Below are positions 314 to 12,890 of a stretch of DNA of 14,666 nt, in pieces. This stretch comes from Desulfuromonas sp. SDB. Lineage in GTDB: Bacteria > SDB-A. Below the pieces are notes generated by a model, which did not search any database, was not told where the DNA came from, and saw only the letters and a program-made list of their open reading frames with translations. Numbering within the stretch: position 1 is the first letter of the stretch; every line of letters starts with the position of its first letter. A program made the position numbers and the translations under genes. The stretch covers positions 1 to 14,666 of the forward strand of contig LKUE01000229.1 of the NCBI GenBank assembly GCA_001412365.1. The letters run 5' to 3'.

Positions 314-3300
314 CTAAAAAATAAATCTCACCCCCATGGAGAAATTTTGGAAGGTTCCCCGGTCAATAATCTTTTCTCCCCAATACTGAAGATAAAAGTA
401 GATATTTTGTGAAAAGCTGTAATTACAATAAATTCTCCAATGATAGGTTAATCCCGGATAATCAACCGCTGCTAAACCAGGGGGAACTTCCTGAATTGAG
501 TAGGCAACCGTTTTGATCCCCGCTTGAAGATCAACTCTAAGTTTAGATTTGTACAGCACACCTGGTACAAGGTCATAACTGTTTCCATGGAATTTCCCCA
601 GCTGGGGATATCCAATGTAGTTAAAATATTCACTGTAACCAGCAGTTACAGTAATTTGAGGTTCAATATCTCCCCAGCCATATCCGTAAAGGCACGAACC
701 TTCCGCAGTCTGCTGTTCAGATTTTCCCCTATATTCAAATTGTTCAATTTGTTCATAGTTATAGGAGCATTGAAATCTCAGATGATGTAAATTTCGAAAA
801 TCCCCCCCTCCATACCAGTGTAATCTATTAACCTGCTGATTAATTTCAGACTCCCGGGAAAAAATCAATTCCCGGTTAATCCCACTATACAATCTCAGAT
901 TATCTTTGCGGTAATGCAGTTTTATGCTTCCATGACGCAATGCGGAGACGGTGTAATCCTGATTGAAAGTATGCTCAGGATCAAACCAAATCAATTTATA
1001 GATATTGTCATATTTAGACACTTCTTTAAACTTTACAGTGACATCTAACCCATAGTTGTTCCAGTAAGGAAAGGCAGAAAATGTAAAATTCACCTGAGTA
1101 ACCGGAACTTGACTGTCTATCTCCTGCCAGCTGCGCAGATAATTTCCATGAATGTCCAGGTAGTATTCTCCGGAAACTGAATCATAGCTGTAATTACCCT
1201 GTCCTTCCTCTACCTGCTGGTAAATTGGCTTTTTACTGACTAACAATTCACGATTTAGCTGATATTGGGCTGCTATAATTTTCTTCCCCCCCCTGAACTC
1301 CTGGTATTCTAATTTAGCCAGGTAATAATCGAGATCAGGGTTTAAATTTATTTGTTCATTCTCTCTGATTTTTCGGGAAATATAAATTGAGATTACTCGG
1401 GAAGGTTGATAATACTGCAGTTGGCTGCCATAATCAGCATCAACCGTGTACAGATAGGAATGTTGATTTTGATTGAGGTAATACCTGCTGTAATGATAAA
1501 ACCAGTTCCAACTCAGAGAGGTATTAATAACCCAGGTTAATCTGCAAAGTGCTTGATATCTCCTGTAATCCAGACTGTCTCCATAATCTTTCCTGGATAA
1601 ATTTACCCAGGGAATAAAAGAAAAAATTTTAGTTCGGGCTATCAAATTGTAGTTATGCTGATATTTAATAATTCTCAGTGAAGAGGGGGAAATCATACCG
1701 GAATCAACCTGTTGGTTTTGATACCCCATGCCAATTAAACTATGATCAAAGGTTAACTCTGCATTAAATGCAATTGAGGATTTATGATCATATTCATTGT
1801 TTAATTGAGCCCCCTTCAAAGACATAAAAAAATTTCCCAGGGAAGAAGTGGTTAGTTGAAAATTTTTAAAACTTCCCCCTGGCAGCAGATAAGATGAAAA
1901 TTCAGCCAGACTGATATCCAATCCTCTTTGATTAAAACTGTAAAACAAATCGTCCATACGGGCATAAGTTCCGGTTATCTGAAATTTTGGGTTTATTACG
2001 GTTAAATCCAGCAGACCACCCCAACCGTAATTATCATCATCATCTTTAGGGGAAAACAAGTTCCAGTCAGTAAATGATCTGGCGGCGTCAACTTTAATCT
2101 GAAAAGCTGGTTTAATCACAGAAAGTTCAAAGATGTCTGCCTGTCTTTTGACCGGAGGCTGGACCTTTATCTTAGCTAGATAATTACCCTGTCCTTCTCC
2201 TACATATTGATAACCAGCAATAGTGTAATTGTAGACATAATCTCCCTGAGTGCTGTCAACATAACTGAAATTTACATTGTAATCTCCCTGCTCATATCCC
2301 TGATAAACATAGATACTATCCACCCTATCATAATATCCCTTGTCCAATCCGACATAGGTTCCTCCATCTACCCAGATTCTTCCTGCACTGTCCCCCAAGC
2401 TGGTCAACAGCTGTTGGGTGGAGGTGGTCATTGAAAATCCCAAAGGGGAGTCTTTTATATCCTGGAGAGTTATTCGGGATATTCCCGCAGTGAACCATGA
2501 ATAATTCCATTGATAACCGGTACTGTAAAGATAGCGCCGGTATTCAAAATTTGTAGTCTGATAATAAACAATAACTTTGTCATCATCATTCAATGTAATA
2601 TCCGGAGAAAAAGTTATTGTTCCCTTGTAGCTGTTGATTTCATAGTCAGAAAAATCCAGTAGAGAGCCGTTAACATACACTTTTTCAGACCCACTTAAAA
2701 TCTGCAAATACTGCTGCTGAGCATCAAGCGGATAAGGTCCTTGAAAACCGTAATCAACATCTATTACCGCTACTTGATTTTCACTTCTGATTTCTCCATA
2801 AAAACCTCCTGCCTTATGCTGATCGTACAGGACATTTAAATTAATTCCCAAAATATCCTGCCGAATGTCGCCGAAGATCCCGGATGTACGGATAATTTCC
2901 ATATCTCCCACCGTGGCTTCAAATAGCGGTGATATCATTTCTAAATAAACTTTGTCCAACTCAGATAAAGGGACCGGAACATCACTATTTCCCCCTTCCA
3001 GATGACCCCTGAACTGAACATCCTCAAAAATACGTCCGTAAAAACTAAGTGAAATATCCTGATCAATTTCTGTCTGTCCCCCTTCCTCAACCCTGAATCC
3101 AAAAGCCTGTTCTCCCCCAATCTGCAATTCTTCTCCCGGGGGAGGGCTGAATTCTTCAGATTCAGATTGAATTTCCAGTTGCAGAGTTTCCTCCCTGGGC
3201 AGATATAAATAATAACTGGAATCAGCCAGATTTCTCCAGGGGAGATAACCAACTGTCAATAAAAATTCCCGGTTCAGGGATTTAACCCATAAAATCCCAT

Positions 3301-3508
3301 TTTTCCAATCCACTGAATCAATTTCCAGAGGAGGAGAAATCACCACATAATTTTCCACCAGAGGGTATTCAGTTAACTGAATCTGGCTCTGCCCATGGTA
3401 AGCAATACTATCTACAACCCCCTGGGTGAAAACCGCTTCAGGAGAACTTTGTCCTGATAAAACTAAATTAACAAAAAAAAAGATTAAATCCAGGGTCTTG
3501 CCGCCAAT
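314..3508 (-). CDS. Large predicted outer-membrane beta-barrel protein (start unresolved)
   Basis: Long beta-rich, aromatic-rich protein: 1,014 residues if counted from the first conventional start (GTG at 3358). The open frame continues 50 codons further, back to a stop at 3509-3511. That extension contains LDLIFFFVNLVLSGQSS, which reads as a signal peptide, so the mature product is probably exported. No ATG, GTG or TTG lies in the extension; ATT (3508) or CTG (3493) would have to initiate, or the A9 run at 3473-3481 hides an indel. Counting from the GTG, residues about 222-266 show the VYVNG..L..SDYEI...KGTITF pattern seen in SprA-like and other large surface proteins. EGQGNY/QGDY motifs recur around residues 360-395 and 710-740. 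Many alternating Tyr/Trp strands follow, and the C-terminus ends VRFIF with terminal Phe, as in BAM-dependent barrels. The start overlaps the end of ndk, suggesting translational coupling. The specific family and cargo are unknown. Confidence 0.85.
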   Translation of the reverse strand: MGGKTLDLIFFFVNLVLSGQSSPEAVFTQGVVDSIAYHGQSQIQLTEYPLVENYVVISPPLEIDSVDWKNGILWVKSLNREFLLTVGYLPWRNLADSSYYLYLPREETLQLEIQSESEEFSPPPGEELQIGGEQAFGFRVEEGGQTEIDQDISLSFYGRIFEDVQFRGHLEGGNSDVPVPLSELDKVYLEMISPLFEATVGDMEIIRTSGIFGDIRQDILGINLNVLYDQHKAGGFYGEIRSENQVAVIDVDYGFQGPYPLDAQQQYLQILSGSEKVYVNGSLLDFSDYEINSYKGTITFSPDITLNDDDKVIVYYQTTNFEYRRYLYSTGYQWNYSWFTAGISRITLQDIKDSPLGFSMTTSTQQLLTSLGDSAGRIWVDGGTYVGLDKGYYDRVDSIYVYQGYEQGDYNVNFSYVDSTQGDYVYNYTIAGYQYVGEGQGNYLAKIKVQPPVKRQADIFELSVIKPAFQIKVDAARSFTDWNLFSPKDDDDNYGWGGLLDLTVINPKFQITGTYARMDDLFYSFNQRGLDISLAEFSSYLLPGGSFKNFQLTTSSLGNFFMSLKGAQLNNEYDHKSSIAFNAELTFDHSLIGMGYQNQQVDSGMISPSSLRIIKYQHNYNLIARTKIFSFIPWVNLSRKDYGDSLDYRRYQALCRLTWVINTSLSWNWFYHYSRYYLNQNQHSYLYTVDADYGSQLQYYQPSRVISIYISRKIRENEQINLNPDLDYYLAKLEYQEFRGGKKIIAAQYQLNRELLVSKKPIYQQVEEGQGNYSYDSVSGEYYLDIHGNYLRSWQEIDSQVPVTQVNFTFSAFPYWNNYGLDVTVKFKEVSKYDNIYKLIWFDPEHTFNQDYTVSALRHGSIKLHYRKDNLRLYSGINRELIFSRESEINQQVNRLHWYGGGDFRNLHHLRFQCSYNYEQIEQFEYRGKSEQQTAEGSCLYGYGWGDIEPQITVTAGYSEYFNYIGYPQLGKFHGNSYDLVPGVLYKSKLRVDLQAGIKTVAYSIQEVPPGLAAVDYPGLTYHWRIYCNYSFSQNIYFYLQYWGEKIIDRGTFQNFSMGVRFIF
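1191..1207. repeat. 17-nt repeat, copy 1 (codes EGQGNY)
   Basis: Identical 17-nt sequence to 2181-2197 inside the large outer-membrane protein gene. In the protein it encodes the recurring EGQGNY turn motif, so it reflects duplicated or conserved strands rather than a mobile element. Confidence 0.7.
2181..2197. repeat. 17-nt repeat, copy 2 (codes EGQGNY)
   Basis: Partner of 1191-1207, about 990 nt away in the same frame of the same gene. Related QGDY-coding sequences lie nearby at about 2230-2330. Confidence 0.7.
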
Positions 3509-6934: not shown

Positions 6935-6959
6935 TTGTTTACTTTCTTAAATAATTTAA

Positions 6960-7041
6960 TGCCGGGAGTGGGACTCGAACCCACAAGGCAAAAGCCGGCG
7001 GATTTTAAGTCCGCTGCGTATACCATTTTCGCCATCCCGGC
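6960..7041 (-). tRNA. tRNA-Leu(TAA)
   Basis: The acceptor stem GCCGGGA pairs with TCCCGGC, followed by discriminator A. The anticodon stem GCGGA/TCCGC encloses the loop CTTAAAA, giving anticodon TAA. The T arm reads GTGGGTTCGAGTCCCAC. An extended variable arm (CGGCTTTTGCC) identifies a class II tRNA, as expected for leucine. CCA is not encoded, so a CCA-adding enzyme is needed. It is the last of three same-strand tRNAs and lies 25 nt before the amidohydrolase start; the A+T-rich inverted repeat TTAAATTATTTAA sits in that gap. Confidence 0.97.
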
Positions 7042-7043
7042 AT

Positions 7044-7115
7044 AGGCGGCGTCCGGACTTGAACCGGAGAATAGCGGTTTTGCAGACCGCCGCCTTACCA
7101 CTTGGCTACGCCGCC
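7044..7115 (-). tRNA. tRNA-Cys(GCA)
   Basis: The acceptor stem GGCGGCG pairs with CGCCGCC, followed by discriminator T, the usual identity element for cysteine tRNA. The anticodon stem GCGGT/ACCGC encloses CTGCAAA, giving anticodon GCA. The T arm is TCCGGTTCAAGTCCGGA. CCA is not encoded. It is separated from tRNA-Leu by only 2 nt and from tRNA-Gly by 11 nt, so the three are almost certainly one precursor. Confidence 0.97.
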
Positions 7116-7126
7116 AGCAATTTTTA

Positions 7127-7199
7127 AGCGGGAGACGGGATTCGAACCCGCGACATCCACCTTGGCAAGGTGGCGCTCTACCAACTGAGCTACTCCCGC
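7127..7199 (-). tRNA. tRNA-Gly(GCC)
   Basis: The acceptor stem GCGGGAG pairs with CTCCCGC, followed by discriminator T, as is usual for bacterial glycine tRNA. The anticodon stem CCACC/GGTGG encloses TTGCCAA, giving anticodon GCC. The D arm AGCTCAGTTGGTAGAGC and T arm GCGGGTTCGAATCCCGT are canonical. CCA is not encoded. It is the first tRNA after the promoter at 7235-7262. Confidence 0.98.
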
Positions 7200-7271: not shown

Positions 7272-8033
7272 TTAAAAACCCAACTTCAGCATCAAATCAC
7301 TGCCTGCTACAATCACAATTAAATCCTGCTGCCCCCCTTCACAGGGTAAAATACTATCCCACTGGAATAAAAGATGGGCAGGAGCGTAAAGAATATTATT
7401 ATTTTGGGGCATAGCTTCATCAGCATTAGCTGCCGCCAGTGAAAATTTGTGAAAACTGGCAAGCCAGCTTATATTTCTATCCCATTCCAACCGGTGAGTT
7501 TCCCATAACTGACCTGATTCCCTGGATAAATCCCGGCAATCTGTCCAAATAAATACTGGTTGATCAGATAAGTCCTGAAATATTTTAACTGGACGGAAAA
7601 AAGTTCTGCCCGGAGAAAACCAAATGCATTTATAACTGTTTAAATTTATGCTGTATTTATTATTTAAATAACTAATTAATTTATCAGTGTAACCGGTTAT
7701 TTCCGGTAAACGTGATTCAGTTGAAGCAGAATATAAAATAAAACTTATAGTGGTTTCAGGAGGAGGGAAGAAAGAATTTGCCTTTACAAAATAAAAAGGG
7801 AGGGAGTCAGTTTCAATAATTTCAGTAATAGCTTGTGAATCCTGTTTCATAAATTCACCGGCAACAGGATTGTACATACTGGCATGGTTTACAATAATAA
7901 TTGCAAAACTGTCCGTTTTCTCCACCGGAGCTTCGACAGTCAAGCTATCTGTAGAAGTAACTTCAATAGGTTGAGGAGTGCTGCAACCAATACTCAGCAG
8001 TAAAAACAGATAAATAATATTTTTAATATTCAA
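7272..8033 (-). CDS. Predicted lipoprotein, family not recognised
   Basis: A 253-residue protein beginning MNIKNIIYLFLLLSIGCSTP: a basic start, a hydrophobic core and Cys17 in a lipobox-like LSIGC, so it is probably lipid-modified and anchored on the periplasmic side of a membrane. A Ser/Thr/Pro/Glu-rich linker (about 18-42) precedes a mixed alpha/beta domain starting FAIIIVNHASMYNP. I see no catalytic signature I can name. Four Cys occur in the mature part or lipobox, at least two of which could pair. The start is TTG at 8033, overlapping the TGA of the upstream alkyltransferase-like gene (TTGA), and an in-frame TAG upstream excludes a longer ORF with a better start. This overlap implies translational coupling. 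It is the last protein gene before the tRNA promoter, and no terminator is evident after it. The function is unknown. Confidence 0.75.
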   Translation of the reverse strand: MNIKNIIYLFLLLSIGCSTPQPIEVTSTDSLTVEAPVEKTDSFAIIIVNHASMYNPVAGEFMKQDSQAITEIIETDSLPFYFVKANSFFPPPETTISFILYSASTESRLPEITGYTDKLISYLNNKYSINLNSYKCIWFSPGRTFFRPVKIFQDLSDQPVFIWTDCRDLSRESGQLWETHRLEWDRNISWLASFHKFSLAAANADEAMPQNNNILYAPAHLLFQWDSILPCEGGQQDLIVIVAGSDLMLKLGF

Positions 8034-8722
8034 GTCAGCGATACTAATTCTCTAATTATTTGATTTTTGCATATTAAATTACCTTCATTATTAACAAAAT
8101 GATAAGAAGGGATTACCAGTGGCAATGGATTTTTAGCCAGGGCATTATCAATAACTTTACTATTAAAATTAAACTGGCTGGATTTAATGGAGCTCAGAGG
8201 TATTAAATTATCTTTGTATTTACTCCAGCCAATTTTATATAGATATTTCAGAACTTTTATCTGCTGGGGAGTTAGTTTTTCCATAGATTTGATAAAATCC
8301 CAATCAATTTTAATCTTACGGATTATCCTATTGTCAGGATTGTCGAAGTTTATGATGGCATTGACCCACTTTTTCAGCCACCGTCCTTCTCTATCTTCCA
8401 CCACCTCCATGGAAGTAAAATACTTGTCCAGCCATTGGAAAAAAATATCTTCTGATAATTTTTCCTCTTCGGGAATAACTACTTTTACCAATCCCTTAAT
8501 GGAAACTTTTTTTGATTTTCCCGAGTAATTTAAGCTAGCCTGGGCGGCGATAAAAAATTCACTGTTTTTCAGCGAGGATATGTGTAGATCTCCGGAGGCA
8601 TATATTAGATAATTTCCCTTATAGGAATACTTGATATTTTTTATTCTTTGATTCCGATTTTGCTTATTAGTGAACTTATCAGGTTTTCTGCTTTCATCGG
8701 ATCGAGTAATTTTTGCTGTCAT
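8030..8722 (-). CDS. Degenerate O6-alkylguanine-DNA alkyltransferase-like protein
   Basis: A 230-residue protein whose C-terminal third follows the AGT/Ogt/ATL DNA-binding domain. LTPQQIKVLKYLYKI (150-164) matches the family's TPFQ..V...L..I helix. NALAKNPLPLVIP (193-205) matches the conserved ..NP.P..IP segment, and FVNNEGNL matches the following RVV...G.L. In active enzymes the next residues are PCHR, with Cys accepting the alkyl group. Here they are PSYH (Pro205-Ser206-Tyr207-His208), so methyl transfer by the usual chemistry should be impossible. ATL proteins also lack the Cys but keep His-Arg; this one has lost both. The arginine-finger motif (RAVG) is also replaced, by KVID. The N-terminal part is basic (1-30) and then weakly resembles the AGT N-domain (FFQWLDKYF). 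ATG at 8722 has GGAG 8 nt upstream. It overlaps the lipoprotein start. DNA-lesion or DNA-structure binding is inferred, not shown. Confidence 0.65.
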   Translation of the reverse strand: MTAKITRSDESRKPDKFTNKQNRNQRIKNIKYSYKGNYLIYASGDLHISSLKNSEFFIAAQASLNYSGKSKKVSIKGLVKVVIPEEEKLSEDIFFQWLDKYFTSMEVVEDREGRWLKKWVNAIINFDNPDNRIIRKIKIDWDFIKSMEKLTPQQIKVLKYLYKIGWSKYKDNLIPLSSIKSSQFNFNSKVIDNALAKNPLPLVIPSYHFVNNEGNLICKNQIIRELVSLT

Positions 8723-8784: not shown

Positions 8785-10239
8785 TCAATCAAATTGAAGT
8801 TCACAAATTGAAAATTCAAATGGTTCTAAATCAAAAAACCATTTAGTTTCTTGATTATCATTAATTTCGCGGCAGTATTCCTGATCGGTGAAGATTTCCC
8901 TGAACTTCAAATAGTTTGGTTTAGATAAGATCACATCCGTACTTAAGTATCCTCTCTTCTCTTCATCAGTATAATTAATTATTATCAGATAAAATTCTTG
9001 CTGGTGTTTCCATAAATATGCGTAAACTCCCCCGTAATCTTCATCTAATCCGTGAACAGTCAACAGTTTCCAATTTCCATAATGAAATACATCTCGGTTA
9101 AGAAGATCAAGTAATTTAATATAAAATTGATTAACTTGTTGATTAATTGACTGATGAGGCCACCGGGAAAACTGCACCGGTATTTTTAGTTGATACCCCT
9201 CCAGCTGCCCTTGATGAACAAGTCTCAATCCAGGCAAAGTCAAGGTTATAACCGCTGCCGCAAATAATTCCTGATTAAACCAGATAGATGCGGCTCTTTG
9301 TTCATCATGGTTTTCAATAAACCTAACTAAATGCTGATAGTATTGCCGGTCTGCATGAAGATGACCAAATACACCTTGATGATCATGATTTTTTAATCGA
9401 TCGTACAATGTCTTATCGTAGGTGTAGTCAAATCCCTGCAGTTGAAGATCCCATTCCATACCCCAGTATACTTCGGCAATAAACAAGAAATCAGGATGAT
9501 TTAATTTAATTTGTTTAATTGCCTCCACCCAAAATTCATAATCACATTCCACTGTTTTCTGCCAGGTTTTACTGAAAACGGAATTTATCACCAGCATAGC
9601 CATATCACATCTAAGCCCATCGCATAAAAAAGCAATTTCTTTTAACTGCTCAATCAATATTGATCTGGTTTTTTCCTTGCTGTAGTCCAACTGGGCAGTA
9701 TCTGTCCAGGGAGAGAAATTAGGATCCTTTCCCATAGCAATGCAGTATGAGTTAACATCCACTGCCTGATTGCTCTCCACCGCTCCTTGATCAAGGTGCA
9801 CATAGATGTCAGGATATTTATAAATCCAAGGATGATCCAAGGCGGTATGATTGGGTACAAAATCCAGAATAATTTTCAAGGGTTCGCTTCTGGCTTTAAA
9901 ATTCAACAATCCTTGTTTTCCCCCCAGCTCAGGGGCAACTTCATAATCCCCTATGGCATAAGGGGATCCGGTTAGATCACAGTCAGGGTTGAAATCAGCT
10001 AAATGCTCTTGTCCCCATTGATTAAGAATGGAAATATTTCTGGCAATGTGAGCAGATATCCTGCTCCGCTTCCAAATTCCCATCAGCCAAATTCCATCCA
10101 GTTTAAGTTGTTTAAGTTTATCTATTTCCTGCTCAGGAATATTGGAAAGATTAATTTTATATCCATATTGCTCAGTTAAACGGTTTAACCAGGCAACTGT
10201 ATTTAATTCTAATATTACCGGATATTTATTCCACATCAT
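8785..10239 (-). CDS. GH13 (alpha-amylase family) glycosidase, cytoplasmic
   Basis: A 484-residue TIM-barrel enzyme of glycoside hydrolase family 13, acting on alpha-glucosidic bonds by retaining chemistry. All four conserved regions are visible: DFVPNH (126-131), GLRCDM with nucleophile Asp212, FIAEVYW with acid/base Glu256, and FIENHDE with transition-state-stabilising Asp312. The SPYAIGDYEVAPELGG segment (92-107) also fits the family. The C-terminal 90 residues look like the usual beta-sandwich domain C. There is no signal peptide, so it should act on an intracellular substrate such as glycogen, a maltooligosaccharide or a small glucoside; hydrolase and transferase activities cannot be separated here. 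The ATG at 10239 lies inside the end of topA (14-nt overlap; a second ATG follows directly), implying coupled translation. The pairing with topA is not a functional association I recognise. Confidence 0.92.
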   Translation of the reverse strand: MMWNKYPVILELNTVAWLNRLTEQYGYKINLSNIPEQEIDKLKQLKLDGIWLMGIWKRSRISAHIARNISILNQWGQEHLADFNPDCDLTGSPYAIGDYEVAPELGGKQGLLNFKARSEPLKIILDFVPNHTALDHPWIYKYPDIYVHLDQGAVESNQAVDVNSYCIAMGKDPNFSPWTDTAQLDYSKEKTRSILIEQLKEIAFLCDGLRCDMAMLVINSVFSKTWQKTVECDYEFWVEAIKQIKLNHPDFLFIAEVYWGMEWDLQLQGFDYTYDKTLYDRLKNHDHQGVFGHLHADRQYYQHLVRFIENHDEQRAASIWFNQELFAAAVITLTLPGLRLVHQGQLEGYQLKIPVQFSRWPHQSINQQVNQFYIKLLDLLNRDVFHYGNWKLLTVHGLDEDYGGVYAYLWKHQQEFYLIIINYTDEEKRGYLSTDVILSKPNYLKFREIFTDQEYCREINDNQETKWFFDLEPFEFSICELQFD

Positions 10240-12430
10240 CTTTATCTTCTATTTTACTTTTGCACTGAGGGCAGAATAAATAATTATTGCGGCGATAGGT
10301 CTTTTTAACCATTAGCTTGAATCCACAGCTGGGGCAGGTTTTATTTGTCGGTTTATTCCATATTATAAAGTCACATTGATTACAACGCCAATATATTTTA
10401 CCCTTGGAACTCTGTTTTTCAATTATTTCTCCGTCACACTCGGTTTGAGGGCAGTCAATGTTCATGAAAAAGGGCAAAGTGGTTTTGCATTTAGCATAAT
10501 TTGAGCATTTCAAGAATCGCCCGTATCTGCCGTGAACTGCTAAAAGAGCATTTCCGCATTTTGGACATTTCCGGTCAGTTTCTTTAGGGGGGGGGTGGTC
10601 GGTTAATACATCTTTCTTTCCAGGGCATTGAGGATAGTTTTCACAAACTAAAAACAATCCATGGGCACTTTTCTTTATCTCCATCTTACTTCTGCACAGC
10701 GGACAAATTTTATCTTCCTCGGATATTTCTATAGGCACCGGATTATTTCTTATGTCTTCTAACCGGTGCTTAAATGGATTATAAAAATCACTTAATACTT
10801 CGTTCTTAGTTTTGGTATTCTGTTCAATTTCATCTAATTCATTTTCCATTTTTGCAGTGAAATTCACATTGAATAAATCGGGAAATGACCTGGTAAGGTA
10901 TTGGGATACCACTTCTCCTAACTTGGTTATCACCAAAGCTTTATTTTGCTTATAAACATATTTCCGGTCCTGAATAATTGAAATAATAGGGGCATAAGTA
11001 CTGGGTCTTCCTATACCCAGGGAATCCAACTGCTTGATCAGGGAAGCTTCGGTATATCTGGGAGGAGGCTGGGTGAAATGTTGTTGGGACTGACAGTCCT
11101 TGATTTTATATTTTTCTCCTTTTCTAAATTTTGAATAATCAATTGTTGATGAGGACTTGGCAATCACATCAGGATCAATGATTTCTCTAAATCCAGCAAA
11201 GGTTACCTGGGTATAGCTGGTTCTCAATTCATATTTTGAGAGGACGGAGAAAATCAAGGTATACACTTTTTCCTTGGAATCCTTACATTGAGAGCTAACC
11301 AAACGGTTCCAGATCATTTGGTATAATCTCAACTGATCCCGGGGCAGTTTTGATTTCAACTGTTCAGGGGTTCTGTAAACTGAAGTAGGTCTTATCGCTT
11401 CATGAGCTCCTTGAATTTTTTTATTGTTCAAAGAATACTTTTTCGGCTGGGGGGGGATTAGTTCTGCTTTTCCCTGATCTGTTAAAAATTGCCTGGTTTC
11501 CTCTACTGCCTGATCGGAAATTCTATAAGAATCAGTTCTCATATAAGTTATTAAGCCAATGGTTTGATCATCAATATCCACTCCTTCAAACAACTGCTGG
11601 GCCAGGGTCATAGTTTTTTTTGCCGAATACCCGAGTATTTTATTGGCATCCTGCTGAAGAGTGCTGGTGGTATAAGGAGGAGGGGAGTGACGGCGGCGAT
11701 CTTTTATATTAATTTCAGTTAATACTGCGGGGTGGGATTCAACATCCTTTATAATTTGACCTGCCTGTTTTTCAGTGGAGATGTTTGCCTTCTTTCCTTT
11801 AATTTTCTCCAGCCGGGCGGTTAATTCCAACTTATCCTTGGCCAATATAAAATCCAGAGTCCAGTATTCTTCAGATTTAAACGCCTTTCTCTCCTGCTCT
11901 CTTTCCTCTATTAATCTTAACGCAACTGTTTGAACTCTACCTGCGGACAATCCCCGTTTAATTTTAGTCCAAAGCAAGGGGCTTATCTCATATCCCACCA
12001 AACGGTCCAATATCCTCCTGGTAACCTGGGCATCAATTTTTGAATAGTCTAAGTCCAAAGGGTTGTCCAGGGCTGAATTAATACCCTGGGGAGTTATCTC
12101 GTAGAATAGTAATCGTTTCACCGGTTTTTTTTCAGGCAGTTCTTCTTTGATGTGCTGGGCAATAGCCTCTCCTTCCCGGTCAGGATCAGTGGCGATGTAT
12201 ATTGAGTTAGCCTGTTTTGCTTCAGAAATAATTTTTCTCAAATATTTCCTCTTGGAGTTAAGCACCACAATTCTTGGTTTGAAATTATCTTCCACATCCA
12301 CCCCTAATTGAGAAACAGGAAGATCTTTTATATGCCCGGAAGTAGAAACTACTTTAAAATCCTGATCAAGATATTTGGAGATAGTCTTTGCTTTAGTGGG
12401 AGATTCAACAATTAATAATTTTTTAGCCAC
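10226..12430 (-). CDS. topA: DNA topoisomerase I (type IA)
   Basis: Relaxes negatively supercoiled DNA by transient 5'-phosphotyrosyl cleavage. The TOPRIM domain opens the protein (LLIVESPTKAKTI with Glu9, and TDPDREGEA with Asp82, Asp84 and Glu86). The catalytic Tyr296 lies in GLITYMRTDSYR. Four C-terminal four-Cys zinc motifs follow, at about 576-602, 622-648, 660-686 and 699-723. The length (734 residues) is typical. I chose the GTG at 12430 over the GTG at 12436: AAGAGG (12436-12441) stands 5 nt before the former but overlaps the latter, and MAKKLLIVESPTKAKTI is the classical TopA start. It begins 2 nt after the smg stop and overlaps the GH13 start by 14 nt. A C9 run (10587-10595) codes for Pro residues between zinc motifs 1 and 2; slippage there would remove motifs 2-4. 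Confidence 0.98.
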   Translation of the reverse strand: MAKKLLIVESPTKAKTISKYLDQDFKVVSTSGHIKDLPVSQLGVDVEDNFKPRIVVLNSKRKYLRKIISEAKQANSIYIATDPDREGEAIAQHIKEELPEKKPVKRLLFYEITPQGINSALDNPLDLDYSKIDAQVTRRILDRLVGYEISPLLWTKIKRGLSAGRVQTVALRLIEEREQERKAFKSEEYWTLDFILAKDKLELTARLEKIKGKKANISTEKQAGQIIKDVESHPAVLTEINIKDRRRHSPPPYTTSTLQQDANKILGYSAKKTMTLAQQLFEGVDIDDQTIGLITYMRTDSYRISDQAVEETRQFLTDQGKAELIPPQPKKYSLNNKKIQGAHEAIRPTSVYRTPEQLKSKLPRDQLRLYQMIWNRLVSSQCKDSKEKVYTLIFSVLSKYELRTSYTQVTFAGFREIIDPDVIAKSSSTIDYSKFRKGEKYKIKDCQSQQHFTQPPPRYTEASLIKQLDSLGIGRPSTYAPIISIIQDRKYVYKQNKALVITKLGEVVSQYLTRSFPDLFNVNFTAKMENELDEIEQNTKTKNEVLSDFYNPFKHRLEDIRNNPVPIEISEEDKICPLCRSKMEIKKSAHGLFLVCENYPQCPGKKDVLTDHPPPKETDRKCPKCGNALLAVHGRYGRFLKCSNYAKCKTTLPFFMNIDCPQTECDGEIIEKQSSKGKIYWRCNQCDFIIWNKPTNKTCPSCGFKLMVKKTYRRNNYLFCPQCKSKIEDKDDVE

Positions 12431-12432
12431 TG

Positions 12433-12819
12433 TCACCTCTTGGTCATTAAGATTGCATTAACCAACATTTCCACTGACCGCAAATCATATCTATCTTCAC
12501 CGCTGCTTTCCACCACTTGAAAAAATTGTTTAACATCCTGTTCATCCAACATTCCGCTGTCCCAAAATTGGAGAAAATAGAGCAAGGCATCATCGGTGAG
12601 ATTGTCAATTATGGTTACAATACTGTCATCAGAAACAGTCACCTGATCTTCAGACAATCTTTCTTCATTGGAAAAAATCATGGAAATGCTGTGCTGGATT
12701 TCATAAGTTGAAATTCCCAGCAATTCCAATTCTTCAATTAAATCACCAACATCTTCCCCCTTAAAAATTCCTAAATATAAAGACTTTAAAAGCTGTTTTC
12801 TAAGCGAATTGTCAAACAA
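12433..12819 (-). CDS. smg: Smg/DUF494-family protein
   Basis: A small acidic, helical cytoplasmic protein of the DUF494 (Smg) family, whose biochemical role is not established. It shows the family pattern: an N-terminal helical pair, a Ser/Thr-rich spacer, then DNLTDDALLYFLQFWDSGMLDEQD and a final hydrophobic helix (SVEMLVNAILM). The open frame reaches 12867, but the start chosen is TTG at 12819. GGGAGG (12825-12830) lies exactly 5 nt before it, and MFDNSLRK then matches the usual MFDVL.. start of Smg proteins. That gives 128 residues. The stop is 2 nt from the topA start, so translation is probably coupled. smg beside topA or topA-like zinc-ribbon genes is a known arrangement in other bacteria, which supports both calls. 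Confidence 0.88.
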   Translation of the reverse strand: MFDNSLRKQLLKSLYLGIFKGEDVGDLIEELELLGISTYEIQHSISMIFSNEERLSEDQVTVSDDSIVTIIDNLTDDALLYFLQFWDSGMLDEQDVKQFFQVVESSGEDRYDLRSVEMLVNAILMTKR

Positions 12820-12824
12820 TAATA

Positions 12825-12830
12825 CCTCCC
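12825..12830 (-). promoter_or_regulatory. Ribosome binding site that fixes the smg start
   Basis: GGGAGG on the minus strand lies 5 nt before TTG 12819. The longer-frame TTG at 12867 has no comparable site, so the shorter product is preferred. Confidence 0.7.
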
Positions 12831-12890
12831 GAATAAAAACTGCAATTAACTGCAGTCTTATTTTCAAATAACACTTGTTTAGAGTGTGGC

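Follow-up and report, generated by a model that had tools for sequence, protein, structure and literature searches.

The AGT fold has been described in two roles, either repairing (AGT) or sensing (ATL) alkylated bases. The features that define AGT and ATL proteins are the PCHR motif, a HTH, an arginine finger, a flipping tyrosine, an asparagine hinge and a catalytic triad with a glutamate, and in ATLs the HTH, including the arginine finger, and the tyrosine are retained (PMC10779285, a 2023 review). Here we analyzed a 14,666-nucleotide stretch of DNA from Desulfuromonas sp. SDB (hereafter the window) and focused on a gene, which we call X, whose product resembles these proteins. Our preferred interpretation, with a probability of about 0.68, is that X is a lineage-specific AGT-family paralogue that no longer performs repair chemistry or reads lesions and has been reused as a putative binding or scaffold protein.

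Like AGT/Ogt/MGMT proteins (PF01035), X shows homology in the C-terminal domain, an Asn hinge, an NPLPxxIP core and a two-part layout. Unlike them, X has no acceptor Cys, catalytic His, arginine finger, Tyr or GGY.GG loop, and its N-terminal domain is not recognizable by sequence as that of an AGT. Like ATLs such as E. coli ATL and S. pombe Atl1, X combines AGT homology with loss of the acceptor Cys. ATLs, however, retain HR, the arginine finger and the Tyr, usually with a Trp in place of the Cys, whereas X has lost the Cys, the His, the finger and the Tyr. X also has a further conserved N-terminal domain that ATLs do not have.

The X locus and its gene neighborhood

X is an intact ORF with an ATG start that encodes 230 residues, with NALAKNPLPLVIPSYHFV near the C-terminal end. 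The features of the locus are as follows:

7272-8033, minus strand: lipoprotein gene with a TTG start and a lipobox-like LSIGC; conserved neighbor with no Pfam family
8030-8722, minus strand: X, putative pseudo-AGT gene, 230 amino acids; ORF with three orthologues in other genomes
8627-8722, minus strand: Lys/Arg-rich N-terminal tail of X, residues 1-32, poorly conserved (10-12% identity to orthologues)
8288-8626, minus strand: N-terminal domain of X, residues 33-145, the best-conserved part (45-50% identity across genera, 74-82% in the sister genus)
8033-8287, minus strand: AGT-like C-terminal domain of X, residues 146-230 (hhalign against AGT profiles; under the PF01035 cut-off)
8156-8158, minus strand: arginine-finger position, Lys189 in X and Gly, Gly and Ser in the orthologues (family alignment)
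8108-8131, minus strand: NPLPLVIP, residues 198-205, in which the Asn hinge and core strand are kept (NPLP and P205 invariant in 4/4)
8099-8110, minus strand: PSYH, residues 205-208, at the PCHR site; PFFR, PFYR and PFYR in the orthologues (family alignment)
8785-10239, minus strand: alpha-amylase-family gene, conserved upstream neighbor (PF00128, 4.5e-11; same place in locus L025)
10226-12436, minus strand: topA, DNA topoisomerase I, in the same conserved gene run (PF01131, 4.4e-116; same place in L025)

The alignment revealed longer Lys-rich tails in the orthologues. The N-terminal domain contains the motifs YASGDL, NEFFIAA-like, IKG, EDRE..WL.KW and IDWD, and searches of Pfam, PHROGs and PDB gave no significant hit for it. 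A weak profile match between this region and the C-terminal region of IleRS (G038, E = 1.3e-4 per genome) was rejected, because hhalign against 18 IleRS C-terminal sequences gave a probability of 0.4% and a score within those of shuffles.

The window and L025 share the gene order topA, amylase, X, lipoprotein, tRNA-Gly, tRNA-Cys, tRNA-Leu and M20 peptidase. The initial annotation had described X as translationally coupled to the lipoprotein gene, an odd partner for a DNA-repair fold. The two frames do overlap, by four bases in the window (8030-8033) and by 14 in L025; the partner is less odd than supposed, because X and the lipoprotein gene both end the conserved topA-amylase run. Within the lipoprotein family, the motifs KANSFF.PPE, SPGR.FFRP and HR.EWD.N were strongly conserved in both genera. 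The tRNA-Gly, tRNA-Cys and tRNA-Leu cluster (window 6959-7199) recurs at the same position and with the same arrangement in L025, L004 and L006. Upstream of topA, and overlapping it by four bases, lies a small protein gene (window 12433-12867) that is conserved in L025 (5757-6143) and whose product had no significant Pfam match. The window also contains a 1014-amino-acid ORF (314-3358), whose product, judged by reading the sequence, resembles a beta-rich protein of the surface or outer membrane, and a large ORF is similarly placed in L025 (14953-18090).

The resemblance of X to AGT proteins exceeds chance

As a single sequence, X scored 14.1 bits against PF01035, below the curated cut-off of 27, and 13.4 bits against the NCBIfam archaeal AGT model. 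AGT chains in PDB were among its best matches, with E of about 0.3 to 0.7. When the four-member X family was aligned to 27 AGTs with hhalign, the probability was 91% and the score 46.6, whereas column-shuffled X families reached a maximum of 19.3 (1.4%, n = 150). Against a set of 21 AGTs the probability was 86%, compared with at most 3.2% for fully shuffled copies. Both AGT sets were collected by Pfam PF01035 only and not for likeness to X; a set of 30 AGTs that included sequences found by the X-family profile gave 96% and was set aside as circular. We also ran the X-family profile against 386 whole genomes. Outside the phylum, 25 genomes contained matches; of 16 such non-orthologous loci that we read, 14 fell on AGT-family proteins. 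We conclude that the resemblance of X to AGT exceeds chance. There is also a good probability that the C-terminal part of X is related to the AGT DNA-binding domain (86-91%, against no more than 3.2% for shuffles), and the alignment to the AGT/ATL family made by eye in the initial annotation was right.

Masking the eight NPLPLVIP columns abolished the AGT signal, and the homology claim therefore leans on this block, the bulk of the signal coming from some 30 columns that surround NPLPxxIP. If the NPLP block was kept and the rest was shuffled, none of 150 copies reached the real score, although the margin was narrow (maximum 46.44 vs 46.63). Likewise, none of 120 copies in which shuffling was confined to the residues preceding position 146 reached the real score (maximum 42.9), so collinear signal also comes from sequence that precedes the C-terminal domain. 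Residues 146-182 made no measurable contribution, as 22 of 120 shuffles reached the real score. There is a weak hint that the N-terminal domain of X may correspond to the old AGT N-terminal domain.

AlphaFold2 models of X built from two-sequence alignments had a mean pLDDT of 36 (full length) and 33 (trimmed). In a PDB fold search with the pLDDT-33 model, no match had E ≤ 0.001 and none of the matches listed was AGT-like; we give this search no weight and infer the AGT fold of X from sequence alone. The low confidence of both models could be explained if X were no AGT relative but a lineage-specific protein of separate origin in which NPLPLVIP arose by chance, as could the non-significant single-sequence matches and the collapse of the signal when eight columns are masked. 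We consider this explanation quite unlikely: shuffled families fell far below the real score, sequence before the block added collinear score in both partial shuffles, and the genome-wide profile search landed mainly on AGTs.

X and its orthologues lack the residues for repair and lesion reading

We compared functional positions across the X family, with residues given in the order window X, G002, G003 and G001. The acceptor Cys position is occupied by S, F, F and F, the catalytic His position by Y, F, Y and Y, and the position of the following Arg by H, R, R and R. In X, the Ser codon at the acceptor site is TCT (8107-8105, minus strand), a single base away from TGT. The position equivalent to the arginine finger (human R128), counted as nine residues before the Asn hinge, holds K, G, G and S, and the finger is absent in all four. 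No conserved equivalent of the base-flipping Tyr (human Y114) was found before the recognition helix in the four members, a region in which the alignment is loose. The GGY.GG active-site loop was likewise absent from all four: at this place the alignment has a gap of three residues and lacks a pair of glycines. All four members share the Asn hinge and KNPLPxxxP unchanged. Neither X nor its orthologues carry the PCHR of AGTs, with its nucleophilic Cys and catalytic His, and in place of the P[W/A]HR site of ATLs, in which HR is kept, X has YH and the orthologues have FR or YR.

For the window protein, the initial annotation had correctly given the ORF, its coordinates and residues, the Cys-to-Ser, His-to-Tyr and Arg-to-His substitutions, and a change in the arginine-finger motif, which is a Lys in X. 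Its suggestion that X may be more diverged than described ATLs also agrees with the additional loss of the finger, tyrosine and active-site loop. Conservation of PSYH, which it had raised as a question for homologues, was not observed: the orthologues differ at the catalytic positions, so PSYH is simply the variant that X has at a site under weak constraint (S/F, Y/F, H/R) rather than a conserved signature.

The same annotation had proposed that X represents an ATL branch used for lesion sensing. As a diverged ATL, X would bind alkylated or distorted DNA and recruit repair factors through an altered pocket, with Ser/Phe replacing Cys/Trp and Tyr/Phe replacing His. Such a role is consistent with the AGT homology of X, its basic tail and the nearby topA, with the bulky aromatics at the pocket positions of the orthologues, which are loosely like the ATL Trp, and with the trapping of a stable complex with DNA by means of an AGT that carried the Cys-to-Ser change (PMC10779285). 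However, the arginine finger, tyrosine and active-site loop are missing from X and from 3/3 orthologues, the pocket residues differ among orthologues, and the genome already encodes an ATL-type PWHR protein. We regard a diverged, lesion-sensing ATL as unlikely. By its sequence, X is best filed in the AGT/ATL homology group as a new variant and would not be functionally an ATL, because ATLs keep the arginine finger and tyrosine and the X family is without both.

X is maintained in one lineage

Orthologues of X were found in all three other genomes examined from the same phylum and the same family, with 36-40% identity to X. No further full-length relative was found by profile search in the 386 genomes, most of which are from other groups, and when about 85,000 species genomes were scanned twice with short peptide patterns, the G002 orthologue was the sole hit. 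Viral contigs and PHROGs yielded no relatives. The best reading is that X is lineage-specific, being present in four genomes of one small uncultured candidate phylum.

Within the sister genus, the N-terminal domain of X had a dN of 0.11-0.17 and a dS from 1.9 to saturated; with dS near saturation, dN/dS ratios are indicative only, and the ordering of conservation is clear. The N-terminal domain was 74-82% identical and the C-terminal domain 55-64%; in the same genomes, the neighboring amylase was 61-66% and the lipoprotein 51-60% identical. We conclude that X is under purifying selection, which is strongest on the N-terminal domain.

The differences at the catalytic positions among orthologues could also be expected of an AGT gene that is decaying and will eventually be lost. 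This we find highly improbable, given that the ORF is intact in all four species, which span two genera, that synteny is conserved, that dN lies well under the near-saturated dS, and that the N-terminal domain is more conserved than the neighboring amylase. The initial annotation had taken unconstrained residues as the mark of a decaying gene; this description largely fits the catalytic site and does not fit the gene, which is clearly maintained.

A putative role for X as a binding or scaffold protein

If X is a reused AGT paralogue, as we prefer, the retained KNPLPxxxP core would hold the old AGT fold together as a scaffold, and the conserved N-terminal domain and Lys-rich tail would do the present work of a binding protein. 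X would be expected neither to transfer alkyl groups nor to flip bases. A DNA-binding role may be compatible with the missing arginine finger, because non-specific backbone contacts need none. X could perhaps be a nucleic-acid or protein adaptor that works in the same process as the topA, amylase and lipoprotein genes of the run, with TopA and the lipoprotein as candidate partners by gene position alone.

We raise more tentatively the idea that the AGT fold has a third functional class, of which X is the founding member. This class would be a conserved non-base-flipping pseudoenzyme that serves as an adaptor or nucleic-acid binder via a distinct N-terminal domain and is tied to the topA run in one candidate phylum. 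A selected family that has the core of the fold without the residues for repair or sensing would show that the AGT fold is reusable, and it would caution against labeling genes of this kind alkyltransferases or ATLs. The reach of these proposals is limited to four genomes of one uncultured lineage, and the function of X is putative.

Other AGT-type proteins

The source genome also encodes a canonical AGT with PCHR (L002, G000:C319) and a short, separate ATL-type protein with PWHR in the sequence NLPWHRV (L003, G000:C25). With these two separate proteins in the genome, repair roles appear to be covered. A PCHR protein is also encoded in each of the related genomes G001, G002 and G003. X is the third member of the AGT/ATL homology group in one genome. 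In another genome, an AGT-like ORF (L061, 1435-1743) has PCYR (NPYPIIIPCYRVIRSNG), in which the acceptor Cys is kept and the catalytic His is changed to Tyr.
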